Source: Brevibacillus massiliensis
GTDB lineage: Bacteria > Bacillota > Bacilli > Brevibacillales > Brevibacillaceae
Length of the DNA: 64,000 nucleotides
Direction of reading: 5' to 3'
NCBI RefSeq assembly: GCF_000311785.1
Contig: NZ_HE978536.1
Span: forward strand, 178,287 to 242,286
Below are positions 48,088-61,748 of this stretch, piece by piece (the first letter of the stretch is position 1; the number at the start of each line of letters is the position of its first letter). The notes beneath the pieces are model-generated. The model ran no database searches and was not told the DNA's origin. It saw only the letters and a list, made by a program, of their open reading frames with translations. The position numbers and the translations under genes were made by a program.

Positions 48088-49197
48088 TTACGCAATGTAG
48101 CCATTCAGGTCATACCCCTCTTTTTCTTCCCAGTAGCCCAGCCCGCGCTGCTGGGTGAATTCGATGCGGCTGAGCCATTTGATCGACTTGTAGCCGTACA
48201 TGTCGGGATGAACCAGCCGCAGCGGCGCTCCCTGCTGGGGCAGAAGCGGCTTGTCATCCAGTTCGTAGGCGAGCAGAACATTTTGCTGCAGCAATTGAGA
48301 GAGTTCATACGTCTCCGTATACATCCGGTCTGCGCTGTACATCTTGACATACGTCCCCGCTGCCTCCGGGTTTACCAGCTCCAGGAGGCTGGAAAACGGC
48401 ACGCCCTTCCACTTCACCTGTGTCACGCTCCAGCCTGTCGAGCAGTGAAAATCGCTGACGATCACATGGGACGGCAGACTGGTCAATTCCGCAAAGGTAA
48501 AGTCTCTCTTTTGCTCTACCAATCCGTCCACCGTCAATCGCCACTCGTCTGGATCAAAGGGCGGAATCTCGCTCGTCATCGAATAAATGCGGAAATACCC
48601 CCTGCGCTTGCCGGTGTCCAGCGAGGCCAGAGAAGAATCCGTCAACGGCCGGAACCAGCGCAACAGCCCGCCTGCCATCAGCGCGAGAAGCCCCCCGGCA
48701 AATAAAACCAGCACCTCCCGCCTCGTAAACAACTGCCCGCCCCGATCGTGCGGGCCCCGGAGCGCCCCTCTTTGTCTGATTTTTCCGACGTACCAAAGGG
48801 CGATATGGCCCAGTGCCCAGGGGATGATGAACAGGCTCAAGCCGCCGTGGATGGACGAGGCCAACTGGCGCAGCCGCAAGTACTCCGTATTGTTCCCCCA
48901 CAGATAGATGCCGGTGGCGATCCAGCCTGCCCCGAGCAGGTACTGGAGACAGACATGAAAGGTTTTCGTCCAGCGCCGGTCGCGGCGAAGGTATTGGACT
49001 GTGGGAACAACTGCGATGGCGAGCAGCAGCAGGTAACAAAGCCCGACGCCGATATGGGCGCTGCGCACCTGTCTGATCGATTCGCCAAACATGGTGCGCA
49101 GCGCCGGGACGTACAGACACGCCCCGGTCGCGAGCAAAACAGAGAGCACGGCTGCATGAATGCCATGCAGAGCCGCCAGCCAACGCCTATTTTTCAT
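48088..49197 (-). CDS. Cytochrome b-like membrane domain fused to a sulfite-oxidase-type molybdopterin domain
   Basis: A 369-residue two-part protein. The first 170 residues hold four to five membrane spans with several His placed like b-heme ligands (LHGIHAAVL, RSAHIGVGL, SIHGGLSLF, ALGHIALWY). The second half is a molybdopterin oxidoreductase domain of the sulfite oxidase/MsrP type, with the molybdenum-ligand Cys in DFHCSTGWSVTQVKWKGV. In most bacteria these are two genes (MsrP and MsrQ); here one chain could pass electrons between Moco and membrane quinones. The ATG at 49197 overlaps the dehydrogenase stop by 11 bp, tying it to the acid-sugar operon. Substrate unknown. Confidence 0.82.
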   Translation of the reverse strand: MKNRRWLAALHGIHAAVLSVLLATGACLYVPALRTMFGESIRQVRSAHIGVGLCYLLLLAIAVVPTVQYLRRDRRWTKTFHVCLQYLLGAGWIATGIYLWGNNTEYLRLRQLASSIHGGLSLFIIPWALGHIALWYVGKIRQRGALRGPHDRGGQLFTRREVLVLFAGGLLALMAGGLLRWFRPLTDSSLASLDTGKRRGYFRIYSMTSEIPPFDPDEWRLTVDGLVEQKRDFTFAELTSLPSHVIVSDFHCSTGWSVTQVKWKGVPFSSLLELVNPEAAGTYVKMYSADRMYTETYELSQLLQQNVLLAYELDDKPLLPQQGAPLRLVHPDMYGYKSIKWLSRIEFTQQRGLGYWEEKEGYDLNGYIA

Positions 49198-50170
49198 AGA
49201 CCACAGCGTTAACCGTATGCAGCAGCTTCTCGCCGGCAAGGCCGCGGAGAATGTTCTCGGCTGTCATCTGGGCCATCCTGGTGCGCGTTGCGATACTGGC
49301 ACTGCCAATGTGGGGGGCGACTACGACATTATCCAGGGTGAGCAGCGGATGATCGGCGCCGATCGGCTCTGTCTCAAACACGTCCAACCCTGCCGCCCAG
49401 ATCTGTTTTCGCTTAAGCGCTTGGTAGAGAGCTGCCTCGTCCACATTGGTACCGCGCGATGCATTGATAAAGATTGCGTCCGGCTTCATCAGCGACAGCT
49501 CCCGTTCGCCGATCAGCTTGTTCGTCTCTTTCGTCGCCGGTGCCATCAGCACCACGTAATCGGATTCGGCGAGCAGCTCATCCAATGGACGATACTGCGC
49601 GCCCAAGGCCTCCTCCGCCTCCGGCTTGCGGCTCCGGTTGTGGTAGAGGATGTTCATGTCAAACCCTTTGGCCCGCCTGGCCACCGCTTCTCCGATGCGT
49701 CCCATGCCGATGATGCCGATGGTCGCGCCATAAATGTCCTGTCCGGTCAGAAGCATCGGCGACCAGCTTTTCCATCTGCCTTCCCTCACGTACCGATCCG
49801 CCTCCGGAATGCGGCGTGCCGTCGCCATCAAGAGAGAAAACGTCAGATCGGCGGTAGTCTCAGAGAGCACGCCCGGGGTATGTCCGACGGGAATTCCCCG
49901 CCTTGTCGCTTCCGCTATGTCAATGTTGTCGAAGCCGACAGCCATCGTGGCGACCACGCGCAAATGGGGAGCGGCGTCAAATACCTCCCGGTCGATCTGA
50001 TCCGCCACGTTGGTAAAAATCGCTGCCGCATCCCGTACTTCCCTGAGCAGCACATCCCTTGGGATGATCTCTTCATCCGACTCCCAAACAAACACTTCCG
50101 TCCGTTCCTGCAGCATTTCCAACGCCCGCCGGGGGATGTTGCGCGTCACGACAACCTTTGCCTTCCTCAA
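49187..50170 (-). CDS. D-isomer 2-hydroxyacid dehydrogenase (glyoxylate/hydroxypyruvate reductase type)
   Basis: NAD(P)-dependent dehydrogenase of the GyaR/GRHPR group. The Rossmann loop is GIIGMGRIGEAVARRAKG, with the catalytic Arg in INASRGTNVDEAAL, Glu in DVFETEPIGADHPL and His in VVAPHIGSAS. VATMAVGFDNIDI is the usual N-terminal lobe motif. I use the TTG at 50170, which gives MRKAKVVVTRN; an ATG at 50188 is further from homology. It follows pdxA2 after an 89-bp gap holding a large hairpin. It could reduce hydroxypyruvate or glyoxylate formed from sugar acids. Confidence 0.9.
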   Translation of the reverse strand: MRKAKVVVTRNIPRRALEMLQERTEVFVWESDEEIIPRDVLLREVRDAAAIFTNVADQIDREVFDAAPHLRVVATMAVGFDNIDIAEATRRGIPVGHTPGVLSETTADLTFSLLMATARRIPEADRYVREGRWKSWSPMLLTGQDIYGATIGIIGMGRIGEAVARRAKGFDMNILYHNRSRKPEAEEALGAQYRPLDELLAESDYVVLMAPATKETNKLIGERELSLMKPDAIFINASRGTNVDEAALYQALKRKQIWAAGLDVFETEPIGADHPLLTLDNVVVAPHIGSASIATRTRMAQMTAENILRGLAGEKLLHTVNAVVYEK

Positions 50171-50210
50171 TTGAACATGCACCTCCATCTGCGTAAATCA
50201 GTTTTGTTTC

Positions 50211-50259: not shown

Positions 50260-51264
50260 TTATGAACGTTTGGGCGCCAGTTCAATGGCCTGGCGAATCG
50301 CTTCTTTCAAGCTGAGCTCGTCGGCGATCCCGGTTCCGGCGATGTCGAAAGCCGTGCCGTGGTCCACACTGGTGCGGATAATCGGCAGGCCGACCGTGAT
50401 GTTGACGCCTGCTTCCAATCCCAGCACCTTGACCGGTCCGTGACCCTGATCGTGGTACATGGCGACAACGATGTCAAAGTCGCCGCGAACCGTGCGGAAG
50501 AACAACGTGTCAGCCGGAAGCGGACCTACTACCTTGATGCCTTCCTGCTGTGCCTTTTCCACGGCGGGGACGATCTTCTCCTCCTCTTCGCCGTAGCCGA
50601 ACAAGCCGTTTTCGCCGGCGTGCGGATTGATTCCGCACACGCAGATTCTAGGTTCGCTGTACCCCGCTTTTTGCAGGGTTTCATGGGCCAGTTTGATTAC
50701 TTTATAGACGCGGTCCGGATTGATCTTTTTCACGGCATCGATCAAGCCGATGTGGGTCGTCACGTGAATCACTTTCAACTTGGGCGCGGACAACATCATC
50801 GAATAATCCTGCGTGCCCGTCAGCTCGGCGAGAATCTCCGTGTGACCCGGGAAAATATGTCCGCCCTTGTGCAGCGCTTCCTTGTTTAGCGGCGCTGTGC
50901 AGATGGCGTCAATCTGCTTGTCGTTTGCCAGCTGAATCGCTTTCTCCAGATAGCGGAAGGCCGCATTGCCCGCCTCCGCCGACACCTTCCCGAACGGCAG
51001 ATCGGCGGGCAGCAGGTCCAGATCCAGGCAGTCGATGCTGCCCGGCTGAAACACTGCTTCCTGGGCGGATTGGATCGAACGCACTGCAAGATCGGCACCC
51101 ACGATGCCCTTGGCGCGTTCCAGCATTTTGGCGTCGCCGATGACAAACGGACGGCAGCCCTCGTAGACGGTGCTGTCTGCCAGTGCCTTCACGATGATTT
51201 CCGGGCCTACTCCGGCGGCATCTCCCATCGTGATCGCGATGATCGGTCTGTGATTGGTTGTCAT
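50260..51264 (-). CDS. pdxA2: 4-phospho-D-threonate/erythronate dehydrogenase (PdxA2 type)
   Basis: A 334-residue PdxA-family enzyme: it oxidises the 3-hydroxyl of a 4-phospho sugar acid and decarboxylates it to dihydroxyacetone phosphate. ITMGDAAGVGPEI, HVTTHIGLIDAV (metal His), CGINPHAGENGLFG, VAMYHDQGHGPVK and TSVDHGTAFDIAG are all present. True PdxA works in vitamin B6 synthesis. The neighbours, a DUF1537 kinase and a TRAP transporter, instead match the known DtnK-PdxA2 route for threonate and erythronate. AGGAG precedes the ATG at 51264. Confidence 0.88.
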   Translation of the reverse strand: MTTNHRPIIAITMGDAAGVGPEIIVKALADSTVYEGCRPFVIGDAKMLERAKGIVGADLAVRSIQSAQEAVFQPGSIDCLDLDLLPADLPFGKVSAEAGNAAFRYLEKAIQLANDKQIDAICTAPLNKEALHKGGHIFPGHTEILAELTGTQDYSMMLSAPKLKVIHVTTHIGLIDAVKKINPDRVYKVIKLAHETLQKAGYSEPRICVCGINPHAGENGLFGYGEEEEKIVPAVEKAQQEGIKVVGPLPADTLFFRTVRGDFDIVVAMYHDQGHGPVKVLGLEAGVNITVGLPIIRTSVDHGTAFDIAGTGIADELSLKEAIRQAIELAPKRS

Positions 51265-51300: not shown

Positions 51301-52503
51301 TTACAGCGCTTTGCGCAGAAGCTCTTCCAGGCTCTTTTGATTTGGCACGCGCGGATTGTTGCGAATCAGCCGGTTGATTTCCAGGGTTTTTCGGGCAATC
51401 TCCGGTAGATCCTCTGCTTTAATGCCGATTTGCGACAATTTCGTCGGCAGGCCGATCGCTTCCACCAACTTGAACACTTCTTTGGATGCCGCTTCGGCCA
51501 GCTCTTTTTCCGTTTTGCCTGCTGGATTGACGCCAAAAGCCAAGGCGATCTTCGCCATTTTTTTCTGCTCTACATAGGTATTGTACTCCATCACGTACGG
51601 CAGAAGCAGTCCGGTTACTTCCCCGTGCGGAGATTTGACCAGTCCGCCGATCGGGTAAGCCAGGGCGTGTGCGGCGGCCGTACCGGCATTGGAGAAGGCC
51701 ATCCCCGCAAGCAGACTGCCGAGCAGCATATTGCTCCGGGCTTCCAGATTGCTGCCCTGCTGTACGGCCAGGACCAGGTTCTCTGCAACCAGTTCAATCG
51801 CCTTAAAGGCGAGTGCGTCTGCGAGCGGGAGCGAGCCTTTGAACAGCAGTTCCCCCTCTGCCTGAATGTAGCGGTAGTTCTTGGCCGTGTACGCCTCCAC
51901 GGCGTGAGACAGCGCGTCGATCCCGGAGCAGGCGGTGACGTACGGCGGCAGGCCGACCGTCAGTTCCGGGTCGAGCAGGGCGACGGCCGGACGCAGATAG
52001 TTGTCGGAGATGCCGATTTTCAGGTTGTTTTCCACGTCGGCCAACACGGCGACAGAAGTAACCTCCGATCCCGTTCCCGCTGTGGTGGGGATCGCGATCA
52101 GCGGCGCGATCGGCCCAGGCACGCGATGCTCGCCGAAGTAATCGGCCGGATGGCCGCCGTGGGCCATCAGCAGGGCCACCACCTTGGCCAAATCGATGCT
52201 GCTGCCTCCGCCAAGGCCGATGATCGCATCGGTGTCCATATGCGACTTGGCAAATTCGTAGCACTCAATCGCCGTCTGGATCGGCGGTTCCGGGACGGCC
52301 TGATCGTACACGACTACATTGTAACCGGCTCCCTGCAGCAAACTGATGATTCTGTCGGCAATGCCGGCCCCTTTGATGCCCGGGTCCGTGACCAGGAAGA
52401 TGTTTTTGGCCTTGAGGCGCTGCAAAATCTTGTCCAGTTCCTGGATCGATCCGTTACCGAAGACGATTCTCTCTGTAGAAAAAAACTCCCATGTGTTTTT
52501 CAT
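51301..52503 (-). CDS. Iron-containing alcohol dehydrogenase
   Basis: Group III dehydrogenase of the FucO type, 400 residues, reducing or oxidising a short aldehyde or hydroxy-acid with NAD(P). The nucleotide region is IIGLGGGSSIDLAK, followed by IPTTAGTGSEVT. Metal ligands are Asp and His in GIDALSHAVEAYTA and two His in AAAHALAYPIGGLVKSPHGEV. AGAGGAG precedes the ATG at 52503. It is 27 bp after the aldehyde dehydrogenase gene. In this operon it may act on glycolaldehyde, tartronate semialdehyde or a similar C2-C4 carbonyl. Confidence 0.9.
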   Translation of the reverse strand: MKNTWEFFSTERIVFGNGSIQELDKILQRLKAKNIFLVTDPGIKGAGIADRIISLLQGAGYNVVVYDQAVPEPPIQTAIECYEFAKSHMDTDAIIGLGGGSSIDLAKVVALLMAHGGHPADYFGEHRVPGPIAPLIAIPTTAGTGSEVTSVAVLADVENNLKIGISDNYLRPAVALLDPELTVGLPPYVTACSGIDALSHAVEAYTAKNYRYIQAEGELLFKGSLPLADALAFKAIELVAENLVLAVQQGSNLEARSNMLLGSLLAGMAFSNAGTAAAHALAYPIGGLVKSPHGEVTGLLLPYVMEYNTYVEQKKMAKIALAFGVNPAGKTEKELAEAASKEVFKLVEAIGLPTKLSQIGIKAEDLPEIARKTLEINRLIRNNPRVPNQKSLEELLRKAL

Positions 52504-52530: not shown

Positions 52531-53973
52531 TTACAGGGTAATGACCACGATACGCTCTTCCGTCATCTCTTCCACTGCCCAGCGCGGCCCTTCCTTGCCG
52601 ATCCCGCTGTCCTTGACGCCGCCGTACGGCATGACGTCGGCGCGGAAGGTGGAAACATCATTGATGATGACGCCGCCGAATTCCAGCTCATGGACGGCAC
52701 GCATGGCCAATTGCAGATTGGAGGTGAACAGACCTGCCTGCAAGCCGAGGCGGCTGTCGTTTGCCATGCGGAAAGCATCGTCGATCTCGTCAAACGGGAT
52801 GATGCTGATGACCGGCGCGAACACCTCCTGGCAAACCACTTTCATCTCGGCCGTTACGCCCACCAGAACAGTCGGGTACAGAACGGCTCCTTCGCGCTTG
52901 CCGCCGCAGACTACTTTCGCGCCGCGTTCAACCGCTTCCTTGATCCACTCTTCGACCCGCTTCGCTTCCTTCTCGGAAATCATCGGACCTACATCGGTTG
53001 CGGAATCGGCAGGATCGCCTACCTTGATCGACTGCGCCACCTTCGCCGCCTTCTCCACAAACGCATCGAACACATCGCGATGGACATACACCCGCTGTAC
53101 GGAGATGCAGGCTTGACCCGCATTGGAGAAGCCGCGCGTCACGCACAGCTCTGCCGCTTTATCCAGATCTGGCGCATCGTGATGTACGATGTTGGGCGAG
53201 TTGTTGCCCAGCTCCAGCGTCACCCTGCGAATCCCGGTCGCGCTCTTGATATGGCGGCCTACCCCCGGACTTCCGGTAAAGGTAAACATCGCGATCCGAT
53301 CGTCTTCAAGCAGATATTGCCCGGTCTCTTGGCCAAAACCGTTGACCACATTGAGGAAACCGGCGGGAAGCCCTGCTTCCTCCATGATCTCCGCCAGCTT
53401 TAGCGCGATGATCGGCGTCACCTCCGCCGGCTTCAGCACCACCGTGTTGCCTGCGGCAATGGCCGGTCCCACCTTGTGCACCGTCAGATTGAACGGAAAG
53501 TTGAAGGGTGTGATCGCACCGATGACCCCTACCGGCACGCGAACCGTAAAAGCCAGCTTGCCGTCGCAGCCAGGCTGTCCGAGCGGCACCCCTTCGCCGG
53601 CAATGCGCTTCGCTTCTTCCGCGGATGCGATCAGGGTTTGAATGCCGCGGTCGATCTCTGCACGCGCGTCCTTGATGACTTTCCCCACCTCGCCGACCAT
53701 GATCATGGCCAGTTCTTCCTTGCGCTCGCTGACGATCTGGGCGGTGCGCATCAGAATCTCATAGCGCTGAACGGGGCTCAGTTTTTTCGTCTTGAAGGTA
53801 TGGAGAGCGCAGGTTACCGCCCGGTTGACGTCCTCTTTTGACGCCTTGCTGACGCGAGCCATCTCCTCTCCCGTATATTTGTTCAGAACGGGGAAGGTAT
53901 CCTCCGTAACTTGCCAATTTCCATCGATGTAATTTCCGTAAACAGCCGTCTTTTGTCCTGTCCCGTTTTGCAT
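52531..53973 (-). CDS. Aldehyde dehydrogenase family protein
   Basis: NAD(P)-dependent aldehyde dehydrogenase, 480 residues. Catalytic Cys is in GFSNAGQACISVQRVYV, general-base Glu in VTLELGNNSPNIV, NAD site in FTFTGSPGVGRHIK and the C-terminal TFRADVMPYGGVKDSGIG is typical. It resembles the lactaldehyde/glycolaldehyde and phosphonoacetaldehyde group, so a small hydroxy-aldehyde is likely. GGAGGAG precedes the ATG at 53973. It lies between the LarA-like gene (39 bp) and the iron dehydrogenase. Confidence 0.92.
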   Translation of the reverse strand: MQNGTGQKTAVYGNYIDGNWQVTEDTFPVLNKYTGEEMARVSKASKEDVNRAVTCALHTFKTKKLSPVQRYEILMRTAQIVSERKEELAMIMVGEVGKVIKDARAEIDRGIQTLIASAEEAKRIAGEGVPLGQPGCDGKLAFTVRVPVGVIGAITPFNFPFNLTVHKVGPAIAAGNTVVLKPAEVTPIIALKLAEIMEEAGLPAGFLNVVNGFGQETGQYLLEDDRIAMFTFTGSPGVGRHIKSATGIRRVTLELGNNSPNIVHHDAPDLDKAAELCVTRGFSNAGQACISVQRVYVHRDVFDAFVEKAAKVAQSIKVGDPADSATDVGPMISEKEAKRVEEWIKEAVERGAKVVCGGKREGAVLYPTVLVGVTAEMKVVCQEVFAPVISIIPFDEIDDAFRMANDSRLGLQAGLFTSNLQLAMRAVHELEFGGVIINDVSTFRADVMPYGGVKDSGIGKEGPRWAVEEMTEERIVVITL

Positions 53974-54012: not shown

Positions 54013-55278
54013 TTACATATGATGCATTTTCGGCAGATATCCGTGTTCGTCAAATTCAAAATCGTGTAATTCTCCCATCACTTCCACGCCGGGAAGGGCG
54101 GCTACCTCCGGCAGCAGGGCTTCCGATACGTACACGTACTCCAGATGGAGCGTGTTGGGAATGCGCATAATCCTCGCCTTGGCCGGCTCGACGCCCCAGT
54201 TGGCGCGCAGTGCGGCGGCAAGCGCGTCCCGATCGCTCGGCATCACGATAGGAATACTCGCCCGCGCCAGGAAGGTGCTGGTAATGACATTTTCATTCAT
54301 CGCCTTGAAGTCAATCTTGTCGAAGAATCGCTGCGTGGTCAGGTCGGCCAGGCCGATGCCCAGCGCGTTGCCGTGGGACGCTTCGGACAGGTCGCTCGCG
54401 ATAATATACTTGATGCGCGGCGAGTCCGGCTCCGGCGTTCCCTGGATCCGCAGACGCCCGATGATGTTCGTATCCATCCCCGTGCCGCTGTAGTTTTTGC
54501 CCACTTCATCCACCAGCAGGATGTCGATGTCCTCCGCCGGAAGCTTTGGCATCAAGGCAGCCGATTCACGGAGCAGCTCCCGCTCCCGCTCCTCGATCCG
54601 GGAAGTGGGGATCGCTTCAATGATCGCCGTCTGTTCGAAAGCATTCTCTACAATGCCGACGCCGCAAAGGATCTTGGTGTTGGCCAGCATGACTCTGGCC
54701 ACCTTCGGCATGATATCGCGAATGCCCGTTACCCCGTAACTGTGGATCAAGAGCGCCTGCTTGTGCTTGCCAAGACCGATGGCCGCCATCTTCATCAGGC
54801 CGCTCTCAATCCCGATCGGCGATTTGAAGTCGGTATGGACTTTGATGCGCCCCATCAGGATAATCCCGTCAGCAGCCAGTGCATTTTTGTCCACGTAGAC
54901 AGGCATTCCATCCTCGGTTGTCCCTACCTGCTCAACCTCCATCGACGATTTGATCGGAGCGCCGCAGAAGTCCTCTGTAACCCCGAGGCTTTCCAGGACT
55001 TCCACCTGTCCCTTGGCCGTTGCTCCGCCGTGGCTGCCCATGGTCGGCACAATATACGGTTCGGCACCCATGCGCTTTAACTCGCGGACGACGGCGCGGA
55101 TGATGATGTGGATGTTGGCGATGCCGCGGCTGCCGGCGGTAATGGCAACCGTCATCCCCGGCTTGATGCGTTCGGGCAGCTGCACGTTTTCCAGCTGGCT
55201 GCGGACGGTGGCGTCGATATCAGCCACAGCCGGCCCGGTAAAGCGCTGTTTGATTTTAACCATTTTTGGGAAATTCAT
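54013..55278 (-). CDS. LarA-like nickel-dependent racemase/epimerase family protein
   Basis: A 421-residue protein of the lactate-racemase domain family (DUF2088). Members use a nickel-pincer nucleotide to racemise or epimerise 2-hydroxy acids. GSHGGATAKGQVEVLESLG carries the active-site His and KVHTDFKSPIGIESGLMK plus IGLGKHKQA the cofactor and lysine regions. LarA homologues now include malate racemase and aldonate 2-epimerases. Its place among four-carbon acid genes suggests a C2 epimerase linking threonate-type and erythronate-type acids. Cofactor genes larB, larC and larE are not in the window. GGGAGG lies 14 bases before the ATG. Confidence 0.85.
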   Translation of the reverse strand: MNFPKMVKIKQRFTGPAVADIDATVRSQLENVQLPERIKPGMTVAITAGSRGIANIHIIIRAVVRELKRMGAEPYIVPTMGSHGGATAKGQVEVLESLGVTEDFCGAPIKSSMEVEQVGTTEDGMPVYVDKNALAADGIILMGRIKVHTDFKSPIGIESGLMKMAAIGLGKHKQALLIHSYGVTGIRDIMPKVARVMLANTKILCGVGIVENAFEQTAIIEAIPTSRIEERERELLRESAALMPKLPAEDIDILLVDEVGKNYSGTGMDTNIIGRLRIQGTPEPDSPRIKYIIASDLSEASHGNALGIGLADLTTQRFFDKIDFKAMNENVITSTFLARASIPIVMPSDRDALAAALRANWGVEPAKARIMRIPNTLHLEYVYVSEALLPEVAALPGVEVMGELHDFEFDEHGYLPKMHHM

Positions 55279-55315: not shown

Positions 55316-56590
55316 TTACTTTAAGAATCCCGGCAGCCAGGTGGAAATCGCCGGAACATACGTGATGATCAGAATGTCGATGATCAGCATCACGAAGAAC
55401 GGGATCAGTGCCTTGGTCAGCTCTTCCAGCTTGATGCCCGCTATCTGACAGGCGACGAACAGATTGACCCCTACCGGCGGCGTCACCATTCCCATCGCCA
55501 GGTTGACGATCATGATCATTCCAAAGTGAACCGGGTCAATTCCCAGTTGCACGGCAATCGGCGTCAACAGCGGCGCCAGGATAATGATCGAAGCAGAAGT
55601 CTCGAAGAACATCCCGACAAACAGCAGCAAGAGGTTAATGAGCAGCAGGAAGATCACCGGATTTTCGGAAAAGCTGGTGAACGCCGCGGCGATTTTTTGC
55701 GGAACCTGCTCGCGTGTCAATATCCAGCCGAACATCCCGGCAGCCGAAATGATGATCATGATGATCGATGTCGTGATCGCCGAACGGGAGAAAATCTCGA
55801 TGAGTTCCTTCCACTTCACTTCGCGGTAGACGAACACGCCGACGATCAACGCGTACACGACTGCGACGACGGCCGCCTCGGTCGGCGTAAAGAACCCGCC
55901 GTAAATGCCGCCGAGGATGATAACCGGCATCAGCAGGGCAAGCAGCGCTTCTTTAAAGGCCTTCAGGCGCGCTCCCCAGGTAATCCCCGGCTCGCCTTTG
56001 TATCCGCGCCGTTTGGAGATATACCAGCAGACAAAGATCAGCGAGCCGCCGATTAAAATGCCTGGCAAAAACCCGGCAATAAACAAATCGCCAATGGATA
56101 CCCCAGCCGAGATCCCAAACAGAATCATCGGAATCGACGGCGGGATGATGACGCCCAGTTCTCCAGATACCGCCTGTGTGGCGCCGGCGAACCGGATGTC
56201 ATATCCTTTTTTTACCATCGCCGGAATCAAAATGGAACCGATCGCGGCCGTCGTAGCGGCACTGGAACCGGAAATCGCGGAGAAGAACATGGCCGTTACG
56301 ACCGTCACGACCGCCAAACCGCCGGTCATCCCTCCTGCCAATGAGTTGGCAAAGTTGACCAACCGCCGGGAAATGCCGCCTGACTCCATCAAGGAGCCGG
56401 CCAAAATGAAGAAAGGTATCGCCATCAACGGGAACGAATCGAGAGCGGCAAACATCCGCTGAATCAACACCGTGAGCGGCATCGTGCCGTCGCTAAAAAA
56501 GGAAATCGTCGATGCCAGACCGATCGAGAGGGCGACTGGCACGCTCAAAAGCAGCAGTACCAAGAGCGAGATCATCATGATGGATGCCAC
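55316..56590 (-). CDS. dctM: TRAP transporter large permease (DctM)
   Basis: The 424-residue, 12-span ion-coupled subunit of a tripartite TRAP importer. Family signatures: AIPFFILAGSLMESGGISRRLVNFA in the N-terminal half, AISGSSAATTAAIGSILIPAM, and LNLAMGMVTPPVGVNLFVA-like NLAMGMVTPPVGVNLF near the end. The GTG at 56590 follows GGGGG and sits 2 bp after the dctQ stop. TRAP systems bring in organic acids by Na+ or H+ coupling; here probably a sugar acid. Confidence 0.94.
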   Translation of the reverse strand: MASIMMISLLVLLLLSVPVALSIGLASTISFFSDGTMPLTVLIQRMFAALDSFPLMAIPFFILAGSLMESGGISRRLVNFANSLAGGMTGGLAVVTVVTAMFFSAISGSSAATTAAIGSILIPAMVKKGYDIRFAGATQAVSGELGVIIPPSIPMILFGISAGVSIGDLFIAGFLPGILIGGSLIFVCWYISKRRGYKGEPGITWGARLKAFKEALLALLMPVIILGGIYGGFFTPTEAAVVAVVYALIVGVFVYREVKWKELIEIFSRSAITTSIIMIIISAAGMFGWILTREQVPQKIAAAFTSFSENPVIFLLLINLLLLFVGMFFETSASIIILAPLLTPIAVQLGIDPVHFGMIMIVNLAMGMVTPPVGVNLFVACQIAGIKLEELTKALIPFFVMLIIDILIITYVPAISTWLPGFLK

Positions 56591-56592
56591 GG

Positions 56593-57108
56593 TTATTCAG
56601 CCCCCTTAAAGAATTCTCGGTTCATTTTTCCGGTCATGACCTCGATCAGAACCGCAACCGCATTTATCAACATAAACAGACCGCCAACCGGCAAAGATGC
56701 ATACGGAATCGTCATGGGAATTTTCAATCCGGGAGAAAGCTGTTTTCCAACATGTCCGAGCATTTCAAAACCAAAAATAATGAGAACGACAAAAAAGACC
56801 ATCGAAATCACAAGCACGAGAATCCGCAGCAGCTTCTGCATGTTTTGAGGCAAACGCTCCGCAATCGCCTCCACCCCAATCAGGGCATTGTAGCGAACTG
56901 CCAGGGATGTGCCGATCAAGACAGACCAAATCATGCAATAACGGGCCAATTCCTCCGTCCAACGGGGAATATCAAAATCAAGATAGCCGCTTAACAGCCG
57001 GGCAACCACCTGATACACGATCAGAGCGGTCATAACGGCAAGCAGTACAGCAATCACATAGCGCAAAACCTTGTTGAAACCATCAATTACCTTGACAATA
57101 CCCTGCAA
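56593..57108 (-). CDS. dctQ: TRAP transporter small permease (DctQ)
   Basis: A 171-residue, four-span DctQ subunit. The second half of the first span is VIAVLLAVMTALIVYQVVAR, followed by PRWTEELARYCMIWSVLIGTSLAVR, the diagnostic DctQ motif (residues about 45-69). The start is a TTG at 57108 with GAGG a few bases upstream. It follows dctP after a 66-bp gap containing a perfect hairpin, and dctM follows at once. Confidence 0.92.
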   Translation of the reverse strand: MQGIVKVIDGFNKVLRYVIAVLLAVMTALIVYQVVARLLSGYLDFDIPRWTEELARYCMIWSVLIGTSLAVRYNALIGVEAIAERLPQNMQKLLRILVLVISMVFFVVLIIFGFEMLGHVGKQLSPGLKIPMTIPYASLPVGGLFMLINAVAVLIEVMTGKMNREFFKGAE

Positions 57109-57174: not shown

Positions 57175-58206
57175 TTATTGCGTGTTGCGAATTTTTCCAA
57201 TCAGCTCTTTGCCGAATTTCGGCTCGTATTTTTCGTAAACAGGTTTTACCGCATCCACGAACGACTGAATATCGGGCTCGATGATTTCCATGCCCTTGGC
57301 TTTCAGTTCTTCCAGATACTGCTTTTCCATCTCGGCGACAGTATCGCGTTCAAATTTGCCCGCTTCGATCGCTGCTTCTTCGATCACTTTCTGTTGGTCC
57401 GGAGTCAGCGCGTCAAATTTCGCCTGGGCCATCATCAACAGCGACGGAGAGTAGAAGTGGCGAGTCATGCTCAGATACTTTTGCACTTCGTAGAAACGGG
57501 AAGTCATGATGATCGGCACCGGATTTTCTTCGGCGTCAATCGTTCCTTGCTGCAGTGCCGTAAACAGCTCTGTAAAGGCCATCGGCGTCGGTTGTGCGCC
57601 CAGTGCCTTGAAAGTATCCATATGGATGTCGTTTTCCATGGTGCGGATTTTAAACCCTCTCAAATCTTCCGGTTTTGTGACGGGATGGGAGTTGTTGGTG
57701 ACGTTGCGGTAACCGTTTTCCCACCAACCCAGGGTTTTTACGCCCATCGTCGATTCAACCTTGTTGCGCAGTTCCGTACCGATTTCGCCGTCAAGCACCT
57801 TGTGGGCATGATCGGCATCGCGGAACAGGAACGGCAGGTCGACGACCGTCACTTCCGGTACGAATCCGCTCATCGGTCCCGTAGAGGTAAGCACCATATC
57901 GATGCTGCCTACGTTCAAGCCTTCGATCATGTCGCGCTCGCCGCCCAGCGAGCCGTTCGGGAAGGTCTCGATTTTGATTGCGCCATTTGTCTTGGCCTCC
58001 ACCAGTTCCTTGAATTTCTCCAGGCCCTTCTGGTAGTGTGAGGTGTCAGCCAGCGTGTGGCCCACCTTCAAGGTAATCGACCCGCCGGCAGATGCAGCGG
58101 ATTGCTGCTGTCCGCCATTATCCGCAGGCTTCACCTCGTTCCCGCCGCCGCACGCGGTCAGAAGAACCATGGTCGAGACAACCAGTGTACTGAACAATTT
58201 CTTCAC
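57175..58206 (-). CDS. dctP: TRAP transporter substrate-binding lipoprotein (DctP)
   Basis: A 343-residue binding protein of the DctP family. VSTMVLLTACGGG holds the lipobox (Cys about residue 19). KVGHTLADTSHYQKGLEKF, GGERDMIEGLNVGSIDM and the conserved Arg in FKIRTMENDIHMDTFKALGAQPTPM (residues about 165-189), which contacts the ligand carboxylate, are all present. Start at 58206 has GGGGG upstream. It follows the sugar-acid kinase and starts the transport part of the operon. Confidence 0.94.
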   Translation of the reverse strand: MKKLFSTLVVSTMVLLTACGGGNEVKPADNGGQQQSAASAGGSITLKVGHTLADTSHYQKGLEKFKELVEAKTNGAIKIETFPNGSLGGERDMIEGLNVGSIDMVLTSTGPMSGFVPEVTVVDLPFLFRDADHAHKVLDGEIGTELRNKVESTMGVKTLGWWENGYRNVTNNSHPVTKPEDLRGFKIRTMENDIHMDTFKALGAQPTPMAFTELFTALQQGTIDAEENPVPIIMTSRFYEVQKYLSMTRHFYSPSLLMMAQAKFDALTPDQQKVIEEAAIEAGKFERDTVAEMEKQYLEELKAKGMEIIEPDIQSFVDAVKPVYEKYEPKFGKELIGKIRNTQ

Positions 58207-58222: not shown

Positions 58223-59539
58223 TTATGGTTCGTATGTGTTTATTTTTTCCACGGCTTTCGCCAAGGAAAAGCGATTTCCAAATGCACCCGCCTTCGTGAC
58301 GACAGGCAGCTTGTCCGCCGGTCCGCCAATGATGACCGACAGCGGAATTCCTTCTTCCACTTCACTGACGATTTGAAGCGCTTTTACTTGCAGGTGAAGG
58401 CACGTGCGGTACGCAATATCTCCGCCGGTGAGAACAAAGCCCCGGAGCTTTCGCTTCGCCTGCACATTCACACCCAGCATCCCCAGGCAGTCGGCAATCG
58501 CGTTGCCTGCGGCAAGACCGCTGGTTCCTGTCTGCTTCATCCAGTTTGCCACCGCCTGCCTCATCTGTTCAGACGAATCAGTGACAAGTACGGGAGAATA
58601 ACCTCCGTCAATGATGTCCAGCGTCTCCTGCAGGGCACGTTCCAGTTCCTGGTGAACCGTTTCTCGCTGCAGGAGTCGAAGCGGATCGGCCATCACGATC
58701 CGAAACTGCGGCCGCTCTTTGAGCACCTCAATCTGCCCTGCCGTAATAGCGCTTACACTACCGGCAATAACAAAAACTGGATCGCTTGAACCCTCTCTCT
58801 CCCTCTTGCCCCTGCCCGCCGAATGTGCTCCAGCGTCCGTGACAAGCTCATCAGACAGCGCATCAGCCAATCCGGCTGAACCTACCCACAAGACGCGCAT
58901 ACGAGTGTCCAGCAGCGCTTGCGTTGCTTTTTGCAGATCTGGTTGATCATAGCCGTCAAAGACGATCAGACGCGTCCCGCTCTCATGCTGGCGTACAATC
59001 TCGCGGGCCAAAACGCTTTTATCTCGTCGTATCGTCTTCAGGTCAATGTGACCGACCGTTTGCTTTGCCTGTTCCCGCAAGAGTGTAGGCAGATGCGACT
59101 CGTTGACTGGCGATTTGGGATCGCGAGCAATCTCTGAATCCTCAAGCAGAACTTGATCGATGATGTGGTACCCCCCTACTGTCGTGCGCCTGTTGACCGG
59201 GTACGCGGGAATGACTGCCGCCACATCAAACGGGCAGCTGTCCAAGAGCGCATTGATCTCGCTCCCGATGTTTCCTCTCATCGTGGAATCGATCTTTTTG
59301 TACACGTAAGGGATCTCGGCCAAATTCATGCCCTCAGCTATCGCCTTGTTCTTTTCGTACGCGTCCTTGCGATCAAGCGACCGGGTTTCCGCATTGATGA
59401 CCCAAACATCTGCGTCTTGGGCGCTTTCTTGATGGACAGGATCCAGCAATGACACGGTACAAAAGCCTTTTTTCGCAAACTGCAAGCCTGTGTCATTCGC
59501 TCCTGTTAAATCGTCAGCGATAACGACTATCCTAGCCAA
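58223..59539 (-). CDS. Four-carbon acid sugar kinase (DUF1537, DtnK/OtnK type)
   Basis: Phosphorylates D-threonate, D-erythronate or a similar acid at O4, giving the PdxA2 substrate. The N-terminal domain starts RIVVIADDLTGANDTGLQF, the DUF1537 hallmark, with KKIDSTMRGNIGSE and IPAYPVNRRTTVGGYH. The C-terminal nucleotide domain has VIAGSVSAITAGQIE, VLTGGDIAYRTC and VIIGGPADKLPVVTKAGAFG. The TTG at 59539, eight bases after GAGGTGA, gives MARIVVIADDL. It is the first gene of the operon and sits behind a region full of TTGCA repeats. Confidence 0.92.
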   Translation of the reverse strand: MARIVVIADDLTGANDTGLQFAKKGFCTVSLLDPVHQESAQDADVWVINAETRSLDRKDAYEKNKAIAEGMNLAEIPYVYKKIDSTMRGNIGSEINALLDSCPFDVAAVIPAYPVNRRTTVGGYHIIDQVLLEDSEIARDPKSPVNESHLPTLLREQAKQTVGHIDLKTIRRDKSVLAREIVRQHESGTRLIVFDGYDQPDLQKATQALLDTRMRVLWVGSAGLADALSDELVTDAGAHSAGRGKREREGSSDPVFVIAGSVSAITAGQIEVLKERPQFRIVMADPLRLLQRETVHQELERALQETLDIIDGGYSPVLVTDSSEQMRQAVANWMKQTGTSGLAAGNAIADCLGMLGVNVQAKRKLRGFVLTGGDIAYRTCLHLQVKALQIVSEVEEGIPLSVIIGGPADKLPVVTKAGAFGNRFSLAKAVEKINTYEP

Positions 59540-59573
59540 TAAATCAATCACCTCTTCGGCAACGTTCATGATG

Positions 59574-59660
59574 TTGCATTAGTAGAGTACATGAAAGCGT
59601 TGCAAAATTCAATATGAAAAACCCATTCTGACTGTTTAATTTTGCAACGATTTTTTGCAA
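59574..59660. promoter_or_regulatory. Operator region of the sugar-acid operon
   Basis: A perfect 12-bp inverted repeat, CGTTGCAAAATT (59598-59609) and AATTTTGCAACG (59638-59649), is 28 bases apart. A further TTGCAA follows at 59655-59660 and a TTGCAT at 59574-59579. A weak sigma-A promoter (TTGAAT, 17 bases, TACTCT, minus strand) lies in the same stretch. I found no GG-N10-GC sigma-54 promoter. These repeats are the best candidate sites for the PrpR-type regulator upstream. Confidence 0.6.
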
Positions 59661-59682
59661 TTTATTATTTGCGTACAAAAAA

Positions 59683-59706
59683 GCAACAAGCATCTCCGCT
59701 TGCTGC
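59683..59706 (-). terminator. Terminator after the PrpR-type regulator
   Basis: GCAACAAGC (59683-59691) pairs with GCTTGCTGC (59698-59706) with one mismatch, followed on the minus strand by six T. It begins 10 bp after the regulator stop and separates it from the operon. Confidence 0.75.
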
Positions 59707-59715
59707 TTGCCTGTT

Positions 59716-61599
59716 TTATTCGCGAATCGACTGCTTCAGTTTCCGCCAGAGCGTTGAACGGTTGATTCCCAGCCGTTTGGCCGCTTCCGACTGATTTTGT
59801 CCTTCCTCCTCCAGCACTCTCCAGATGATTTCCCGTTCGATCTCCTCCAGCGTTTTGCCGCTGATATCGATCCCCGCGCCGGATGGAGCGCGGCCTGCTT
59901 CGTTCATTACCTCGAGCAAAATATGCTCCGCTTCCGCCCGGTCAATGAAGGGCCCCTCGGCGGCCAGGCACATTTTTTCCACCGCGGTTTTCAATTCCTG
60001 AATGTTGCCCGGCCAATCCGCCTCTTTCAACATGGCCAGCACATTCTGCCGGACGCCGACGATCTGCTTGCCAAAACGAGCGTTAAACGAGGCGATGAAC
60101 CACCGCACCAGATCTTCAATATCTTCTTTCCGCTCGCGGAGCGGGGGAATAAACAGCGTGTACCCATTGATCAAATGGTATAAATCTTCGCGAAACTCTC
60201 CCGCTTCGACGCGTTCTTTCAAGCTCTGGGCGTTGGCGGCAATGATCCGCACATCGGTCTCAATCGGCGCAGTGCCGTTCAGACGGCTGACCTTTTTCTC
60301 CTGTAAGACGTTGATCAGCATCGCCTGTACGGTTGGCGGCAGCTTGCCGATTGCATCGATAAACAGCGTTCCGCCGTGGGCCAGCTCAAAGACCCCGCGC
60401 TTTACAAGGCTCCCTTCACTGCCGAACAGCTCCAGCATCAACTGCTCCTCGCCAAACGCCTCGCAGTTGATGAACACGAACGGAAAATCCCGGCGGCGCC
60501 CGGCATTGTGAATGGCCTGTGCGACACTTTGCTTGCCAGTGCCCGGTTCGCCGTACAGAAGCAGCGGCAGTTCTGTTCGGCTTGCCTGCTTCGCCAGCTT
60601 CAGCATTTTTTTCATCCCGTCCGAAGTGGTTACCAGCTGGTTAAAATGCATGCTCGCCCGGGACTCCTGGCCGGCAAGCGACTGGCGCAGCCGGGACTCC
60701 GCCTTTTGAATGTGGCGAGCCGGCTGTATCACCGCAAAGCCGCCTTCCTGTTTCTCTTCTACGATCAGCGGCAGTTTTTGGATCAGGACTTTTTCTCCGT
60801 TCAGCGAAATGACTTCCTCGCCGGAGGCTTGGCTCGTCTTCAGCACGCTGTCGAGATTCAGGAGCGGGTGCAGCTGCTCAAACGGTTTGTCCAGCGCGTA
60901 TCCCGCCTGGATGCCAAGCACTTCTTCCGCCTGATGGTTAAAAGCAAACACGCGTCCATCGCCTGCGGCGGCAATCACTCCGACTGGCAGGCTTTGCACC
61001 AGCGCCTCCATGCGCTGCCGCATTTCCTTCTCCCGCCGCGTGTAATAGGCCATGTGCTCCGCTTCGGAGATCGACTCCAGCACGGCTTCCTTGCCCGACG
61101 TGATCAAGATGGCCTGCATCCCCAAGCGGGTGGCGACAGAAGTGGAGATCACATCGCCGATGATTACCTGGATGCCTTGTGCCAGCGCCTGCTTCAAGCC
61201 CTGCTCGATCTCCTGCTCTTCTCCGATCGGAAAGAAGGTCAAATTCATGTCCAACAGCGTTCCGATCGCATCGGCGCCCTGGATTGTGTTCAAATAGCTC
61301 ATCAGTCCGATGTTGCCGGTAAAACCTTTGACCAGCGTCAGGGTGCGCAAAATGTCGTAGCCGGAGATTTTCACTTCCACCACCGGCAGATTGCAGTGCT
61401 TGCGCAGCAAACGCGCAGTCGCCCCCCGGCTGATAATCACGTCGTACCCTTTGTCCTCAAGACTTTTCGCCAGGGCCAATCCCTTGTACAAATCGCCTAC
61501 CTCGACATCAATTGCAACATCATGGTTTGTTTCCGCCTTGATCTCTAGAAAAATATCCCGCAGCCCCTGATATGGGGCAATCACCAGAATGCGCGCCAC
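59716..61599 (-). CDS. PrpR-type regulator with a degenerate sigma-54-activator AAA+ domain
   Basis: A 627-residue regulator: PrpR_N sensor domain (about 1-185), PAS (195-300), AAA+ (315-555) and Fis-type HTH (595-620, with SEAAKRLGINRSTLWRKL). Walker A, GEPGTGK (349-355), is intact. Three features needed for sigma-54 activation are missing. The GAFTGA loop is deleted (FGSEGSLVKRGVFELA, 391-406). Walker B reads LFIDA instead of DE (Ala415). The arginine-finger position is Leu475 in FREDLYHL. It therefore probably works with the housekeeping polymerase, like TyrR-type proteins. GTG start at 61599 follows GAGGGG. It sits directly upstream of the sugar-acid operon. Confidence 0.9.
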   Translation of the reverse strand: MARILVIAPYQGLRDIFLEIKAETNHDVAIDVEVGDLYKGLALAKSLEDKGYDVIISRGATARLLRKHCNLPVVEVKISGYDILRTLTLVKGFTGNIGLMSYLNTIQGADAIGTLLDMNLTFFPIGEEQEIEQGLKQALAQGIQVIIGDVISTSVATRLGMQAILITSGKEAVLESISEAEHMAYYTRREKEMRQRMEALVQSLPVGVIAAAGDGRVFAFNHQAEEVLGIQAGYALDKPFEQLHPLLNLDSVLKTSQASGEEVISLNGEKVLIQKLPLIVEEKQEGGFAVIQPARHIQKAESRLRQSLAGQESRASMHFNQLVTTSDGMKKMLKLAKQASRTELPLLLYGEPGTGKQSVAQAIHNAGRRRDFPFVFINCEAFGEEQLMLELFGSEGSLVKRGVFELAHGGTLFIDAIGKLPPTVQAMLINVLQEKKVSRLNGTAPIETDVRIIAANAQSLKERVEAGEFREDLYHLINGYTLFIPPLRERKEDIEDLVRWFIASFNARFGKQIVGVRQNVLAMLKEADWPGNIQELKTAVEKMCLAAEGPFIDRAEAEHILLEVMNEAGRAPSGAGIDISGKTLEEIEREIIWRVLEEEGQNQSEAAKRLGINRSTLWRKLKQSIRE

Positions 61600-61616: not shown

Positions 61617-61651
61617 GCAACAATATCTGCATTTTGAATGTTGCATTTTGA
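61617..61651. promoter_or_regulatory. Possible autoregulatory sites of the PrpR-type gene
   Basis: GCAACA (61617) and TGTTGC (61639) form an inverted repeat, and TGCATTTTGA occurs twice as a direct repeat (61628 and 61642). The TTGCA core matches the repeats before the sugar-acid operon. Confidence 0.5.
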
Positions 61652-61748
61652 TACATATAGTGTACTGATCTGCTTTTCTTTTTTCAATAGGTGGGTGGGT
61701 GGCTTTGGAAAAAACGCGTTCTATTTGCTTTGGTGTACATTGATGAAG

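Follow-up and report, generated by a model that had tools for sequence, protein, structure and literature searches.

A PrpR-like class of sigma-54 activator homologues in Bacilli that lost its motor and probably moved to sigma-A promoters of an acid-sugar operon

Introduction

Homologues of sigma-54 activators (EBPs) without the GAFTGA loop include R. capsulatus and Caulobacter NtrC, HupR, DhaR, VpsR, and B. subtilis YplP, and those studied experimentally act at sigma-70 promoters, some of them without ATP hydrolysis (PMC3162934, PMC10274813). GAFTGA loss together with a switch to sigma-70 has been documented for TyrR, DhaR, HupR, and R. capsulatus NtrC, and VpsR and YplP have been noted as motif-less (PMC3162934, PMC10274813, PMC1173090). 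Phylogeny ties TyrR to a sigma-54 ancestor (PMC1173090), and the TyrR boxes are palindromic, TGTAAA-N6-TTTACA, with strong and weak versions (PMC4374768).

PrpR of E. coli and Salmonella (TIGR02329) has the same sensor-AAA+-Fis architecture as the regulator described here, which in contrast to PrpR lacks GAFTGA and lies beside the DUF1537 and PdxA genes of an acid-sugar operon rather than beside propionate genes. In the open-access literature we found no description of a PrpR_N/DUF1537 regulator or a GAFTGA-less PrpR class, nor of the class operator and its link to the operon, an absence that carries little weight.

Results

The window, by which we mean the whole 64-kb stretch of DNA analysed, encodes a regulator on its minus strand, a detail absent from the initial annotation, and Pfam confirmed the sensor, PAS, AAA+, and Fis HTH domains that had been assigned to it (Table 1). 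The PrpR_N match exceeded the curated PF06506 cut-off (177.8 against 29.1 bits), with 2q5c and 2pju as solved relatives of this domain, and the homology to Sigma54_activat (residues 323-481), AAA_lid_14 (488-557), and HTH_8 (583-623) places the protein in the NtrC/EBP homology family. Scores against the propionate PrpR model TIGR02329 (289 bits; cut-off, 499, placing it below the equivalog threshold) and the TyrR model NF008085 (198.8 bits; cut-off, 576) both fell short. In an AlphaFold model, the AAA+ core was confident (most ten-residue blocks at 77 to 92), and the AAA+ domain matched NtrC1 1ny6 with a TM score of 0.90 by target length; VpsR structure 7v2b was also among the structural matches of the model, the AAA+ domain being the common part. 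An Rfam scan of the window returned no matches.

Table 1. Features of the regulator locus and target operon, in window coordinates
Feature	Position	Strand	Basis
Converted PrpR_N-PAS-AAA+-Fis regulator, 627 aa, GTG start	59716..61599	(-)	ORF, Pfam, alignment
PrpR_N ligand-sensor domain, residues 26-190	61030..61524	(-)	Pfam PF06506, 177.8 bits
PAS domain, residues 196-241; fastest-evolving part	60877..61014	(-)	Pfam, domain divergence
Walker A GEPGTGKQ, residues 350-357, kept	60529..60552	(-)	Alignment
L1 region, GAFTGA deleted, residues 390-410, 7 residues shorter than canonical	60370..60432	(-)	Alignment
Walker B D415-A416, catalytic Glu lost	60352..60357	(-)	Alignment
Leu476 at PspF R168 (arginine finger) position	60172..60174	(-)	NtrC1 alignment
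Fis-type HTH, residues 583-623, nearly invariant in class: NQSxAAKRLGINRSTLWRKL	59731..59853	(-)	Pfam HTH_8, alignment
Predicted sigma-A -35 of regulator gene, TTGAAA	61682..61687	(-)	Promoter prediction
Predicted sigma-A -10 of regulator gene, TACACT, 17-bp spacer	61659..61664	(-)	Promoter prediction
Operator in regulator's own promoter, ATGTATCAAAATGCAACAT, 19.6 bits, centre about +5	61638..61656	(-)	PWM
Intrinsic terminator-like stem-loop after regulator, parting it from operon	59681..59708	(-)	Sequence
Operator O1, TCGTTGCAAAATTAAACAG, 19.5 bits, centre about -64 of operon promoter	59632..59650	(-)	PWM
Operator O2, ATATTGAATTTTGCAACGC, 12.5 bits, centre about -29, overlaps -35	59597..59615	(-)	PWM
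Predicted sigma-A -35 of operon, TTGAAT, inside O2	59607..59612	(-)	Promoter prediction
Predicted sigma-A -10 of operon, TACTCT, 17-bp spacer	59584..59589	(-)	Promoter prediction
DUF1537 four-carbon acid-sugar kinase, first operon gene	58223..59569	(-)	ORF, Pfam, NCBIfam
TRAP transporter DctP	57175-58206	(-)	Pfam
DctQ-size ORF of TRAP transporter	56593-57108	(-)	Inferred from ORF size and position
DctM-like ORF of TRAP transporter	55316-56590	(-)	Inferred from ORF size and position
LarA-like nickel-pincer isomerase, group 22	54013..55278	(-)	Pfam; NCBIfam NPN_iso_grp_22 over cut-off
Aldehyde dehydrogenase	52531..53973	(-)	Pfam, NCBIfam
Iron-containing alcohol dehydrogenase	51301..52503	(-)	Pfam, NCBIfam
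PdxA-family dehydrogenase	50260..51264	(-)	Pfam, NCBIfam
2-hydroxyacid dehydrogenase	49187..50188	(-)	Pfam, NCBIfam

Alignment of the AAA+ region with NtrC1, including the PspF R168 position, upheld all three motif losses behind the earlier claim that the sigma-54 machinery is gone. As that claim had it, Walker A is intact and Walker B ends in DA; the GAFTGA loop is deleted, leaving ELFGSEGSLVKRGVFELAHGG, 21 residues, against 28 in canonical PrpR_N proteins (ELFGYEEGAFTGA...FELAHGG). The arginine finger is replaced by leucine as stated, but the residue is Leu476 when the GTG start is counted as 1, position 475 being His. The R162 equivalent is kept as R470. A sequencing or assembly error was ruled out, as the orthologues in G004, G022, G034, and G036 carry all three losses; the same triple loss was found in a Brevibacillus MAG protein (L025) and other family members. 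The window genome has rpoN and about 40 activator domains, so the loss is specific to the window regulator, apart from the protein described next.

A second GAFTGA-less activator-like protein was observed in the window genome (L018, 631-2403; contig C2, about 68630-70402). Its AAA+ domain is present, the loop is replaced by IEQEGRISPGLFELA, and Tyr occupies the R168 position; the N-terminal sensor is of an unrecognised type, the C-terminus has a weak winged-helix match, and a homologue, L223, occurs in G206. L018 possibly represents another converted class. Activator genes broken by TGA or split across frames were also seen in this genome (C1:209159-209491 and C1:12835-13334).

Searching 39 family genomes and 399 Bacilli genomes with PF06506, and counting added relatives with one duplicate dropped, we obtained 50 PrpR_N proteins without GAFTGA, hereafter the class, and 47 with it. 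The P-loop Lys, Walker B Asp and Glu, and both arginines were invariant in 46 GAFTGA-bearing proteins. Among 49 aligned class members, the P-loop Lys was kept in 45 and replaced by Arg in the other 4, and the Walker B Asp and Glu were kept in 11 and 6, respectively. This decay of the AAA+ domain is graded: L154 (genome G088) has lost the loop and finger and keeps Walker B DE, most Brevibacillus-like members have DA, Walker B is unrecognisable in some other members, and the AAA core of the g33 genus can hardly be made out. For the strongly decayed L030, the structure model was poor in the AAA+ part (pLDDT <50). At 25-35% sensor identity, AAA+ identity was 0.20 in the class versus 0.61 in the canonical group and HTH identity was 0.66 versus 0.41; because the first is lower and the second higher at equal sensor divergence, constraint has, by these identities, moved from the motor to operator recognition. 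Values of dN/dS in the class were well below 1 in all domains, mostly 0.02-0.3 where synonymous sites were unsaturated. The systematic class of converted activators anticipated by the initial annotation was thus found.

Trees were built on the PrpR_N sensor domain alone and are thus independent of the AAA+ trait. One branch separated all 50 class rows from the rest (SH-aLRT, 99); with GAFTGA-intact proteins of other Bacillota classes added there was still one change (SH-aLRT, 100), and when the longest branches were left out of a carefully built tree, support for the class was 100/100. These trees are unrooted, and rooting on distant canonical rows nested the class inside GAFTGA-bearing proteins. 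As the trees have it, the motor was lost once in the ancestry of the sampled Bacilli members, and the class is a single clade. Since all 25 inspected best matches from other classes carried GAFTGA or a close variant, the conversion seems, within this sampling, to be limited to Bacilli.

The rpoN gene was present in 51 of the 53 carrier genomes. The two with a missing Sigma54_DBD match, G199 and G290, belong to the same genus, are both 100% complete, and nevertheless each retain an intact class member (L147, L143). No canonical activator was found in either genome, their Sigma54_activat matches being GAFTGA-less (L216, L217) or weak (at most 36 bits). L216 of G199 and L217 of G290 are GAFTGA-less PAS-AAA+-HTH-like proteins with a sensor unlike the class sensor.

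Taking a -24/-12 matrix match of at least 14 bits near a gene as a sigma-54 promoter, we found one at 1 of 50 class genes (shuffles, 1.6) versus 30 of 47 GAFTGA-bearing genes (shuffles, 2.0). Consistent with the reported lack of a sigma-54 promoter before the target operon, the best match near the window gene scored about 9 bits, against 14-20 bits beside GAFTGA-bearing relatives. The rpoN-less carriers, the lack of sigma-54 promoters, and the operators over predicted sigma-A promoters described below support the earlier proposal of action through sigma-A, as far as sequences can tell.

An unsupervised count found the 7-mer TGTTGCA/TGCAACA in 33 of 50 operon-side regions (4.6 expected), while the GAFTGA group lacked this enrichment and showed TGGCACG, the sigma-54 -24 element, instead. 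The class operator spans 17 bp, TGTTKCA-WWW-TGMAACA. A symmetric PWM matched 46/50 operon regions and 28-29/50 own-gene regions, with about 1 in shuffles; it was trained on the loci scored, and independent checks come from the word count, which was unsupervised, and from the GAFTGA-intact orthologues, which played no part in the training. It also matched 11 of 47 GAFTGA-bearing loci, as expected if the operator is ancestral. Only three sites of at least 11 bits occurred in the window, all at the regulator locus, and the degenerate palindrome with one mismatch occurred at ten places in the window genome, two of them at this locus.

Several of the predicted sigma-A promoters are weak, the operon -10 of the window matching at 3 of 6 positions. 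In the control for operator-promoter geometry, operators were held fixed and the remaining sequence was shuffled, because the operator's own TTGCA resembles a -35 element; a scan of -10 offsets without fixed operators gave signals inside the operator itself. At the own promoter, the operator lay at +3 to +13 in 22 of 29 loci (shuffled mean, 1.4; maximum, 4). At the operon promoter, it lay at -31 to -27 in 20 of 38 loci (mean, 4.5; maximum, 10) and at +28 to +36 in 14 of 38 (mean, 2.7; maximum, 7), often as one of a pair whose other site is near -64, -80, or -91.

Within the target operon, the best NCBIfam model for the kinase was D-threonate kinase, at a score below cut-off, and the LarA-like isomerase suggests an epimerisation step of a sugar acid. 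The kinase probably starts at a TTG near 59539, behind GAGGTG, rather than at the ATG at 59569 (window 59531-59569), which leaves space for a leader between the predicted start site and the kinase. Across the class, a DUF1537 kinase lay within 4 kb of the class gene in at least 42 of 50 loci, a count in which loci cut by contig ends score as failures and the window's own adjacent kinase falls outside the counted locus. Near the GAFTGA-bearing PrpR_N genes of the sample, such a kinase was found once in 47 (Cloacimonadota L026). PdxA usually follows the kinase in class loci, and a KdgT permease (PF03812) often precedes it. With one mismatch allowed, cre-like (CcpA) sites were observed in 12 of 50 class operon regions, for example at L158 (shuffles, 0.4), a pattern in keeping with sigma-A promoters subject to carbon catabolite control.

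In a set of 20 GAFTGA-intact loci from other Bacillota classes (L264-L283) plus the Cloacimonadota MAG locus L026, unused in matrix training but picked as best matches to the class profile, the kinase was present in 18/21, a -24/-12 promoter in 15/21, and the class operator in 15/20. Like the class, these PrpR_N activators have this operon type, the operator, and the closest sensor domains; unlike the class, they have an intact motor and a -24/-12 promoter. Their operator typically sits where an enhancer would be expected, some 90-170 bp ahead of the -24 element, and almost none of these loci has an own-gene operator. They apparently represent the pre-conversion state, and the comparison indicates a conversion that altered the type of promoter, the place of the operator, and autoregulation but retained the regulator, its operator, and the operon.

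Discussion

We consider it likely that a PrpR-like sigma-54 EBP lost its contact loop and ATP hydrolysis once and was redeployed on sigma-A promoters of the same operon. Judged from its sequence, the window regulator is most probably an autorepressor, with a sugar-acid ligand as the signal that lifts repression. In the mechanism that we infer, including repression, ligand, nucleotide binding, and oligomeric state, a dimer or higher oligomer would bind TGTTKCA-WWW-TGMAACA via the Fis HTH. At the own promoter, where the operator covers the start site, binding would cause autorepression. At the operon promoter, where the operator lies over the -35/-10 spacer or near +32, often with an upstream partner, it would block or hold sigma-A RNA polymerase until ligand arrives, and binding of the sugar acid or its catabolite by PrpR_N would relieve repression.

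The acid-sugar ligand proposed in the initial annotation is plausible from the operon content, and the one sign of the proposed use of ATP as a switch is the conserved P-loop. The AAA+ domain would survive as a scaffold, probably still nucleotide-binding, and the kept P-loop together with precedent suggests ATP binding without hydrolysis (PMC10274813). More tentatively, it is possible that the class AAA+ domain is a non-hydrolysing nucleotide sensor, in which the ATP/ADP level would gate sugar-acid binding and so control the repressor oligomer on paired operators, a reading that stems from retention of the P-loop Lys (or Arg, in the four exceptions) even where the AAA+ core has decayed.

The main rival to an autorepressor is dual regulation of the TyrR type through sigma-A, in which the ligand-bound protein at the upstream operator (-64, -80, or -91) would activate by contacting RNA polymerase and the promoter-overlapping site would repress. 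Strong upstream sites are paired with weaker promoter-overlapping ones: seven Brevibacillus-like loci have the pair at -64/-29, and other loci have it at -80/-29. The -64 operator of the Brevibacillus-like group also occupies a classical activator position. Similarly, TyrR activates ipdC from a strong box whose centre is 33 bp upstream of the -35 and represses akr from a weak one that overlies a -10 (PMC4374768). However, activation is hard to picture at L128, L142, L135, and L149, which have a +32 site only, and the own-promoter site is purely repressive by position; dual regulation is, in our judgement, unlikely.

Far less probable is continued service to sigma-54, in which the protein would perhaps join an intact activator in mixed hexamers as a passive subunit. 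The prevalence of rpoN among carriers and the many activator domains of the window genome would permit it, and hydrolysis-defective PspF E108Q is reported as still able to remodel (PMC4132715), but the GAFTGA contact is gone, class loci lack a sigma-54 promoter, class members live in rpoN-less genomes, and the operators sit on sigma-A-like promoters, not at enhancer distance from a -24 element. The least credible reading is a pseudogene in progress, with the class as the remains of a sigma-54 activator that has lost its function and is decaying. The broken AAA+ motifs and the state of the AAA core in the g33 genus would fit decay, yet the listed class members have open frames, the low dN/dS extends to every domain, the HTH and operator are almost invariant, the operon is conserved, and the class spread across many families after one origin.

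With redeployment on sigma-A promoters as the preferred reading, the same regulator, operator, and operon would be extant both in a sigma-54 state, in other Bacillota classes, and in a sigma-A state, in Bacilli, and the graded intermediates (such as L154 of G088) and rpoN-less carriers allow the succession of steps in promoter conversion to be tested. The class also warns that a protein annotated through its sigma-54 activator domain can in fact regulate through sigma-A, and its operator is ready for use with a family of possible acid-sugar biosensors.

How a regulator can switch sigma factors has mostly been learned from single examples, TyrR being one. TyrR of E. coli and its relatives, which derives from the sigma-54 activator PhhR, resembles the class as an EBP homologue that lost GAFTGA; it acts on sigma-70 promoters, usually as a repressor, and its box geometry is similar to that of the class operator. 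The operator-promoter geometry of the class is consistent with its working like a TyrR-type converted EBP. TyrR differs from the class in its sensor, phylum, and operator, and in E. coli TyrR both Walker B DE and the arginine finger are retained; the class, unlike TyrR, kept its operon and operator across the conversion, and its AAA+ decay went much further. NtrC, HupR, DhaR, VpsR, and YplP, unlike the class, are reported as single genes or narrow clades, and to our knowledge none of these GAFTGA-less proteins carries PrpR_N. GAFTGA loss with a switch to sigma-70 is known, with TyrR as the precedent; what is new here is a larger, PrpR_N instance of it.
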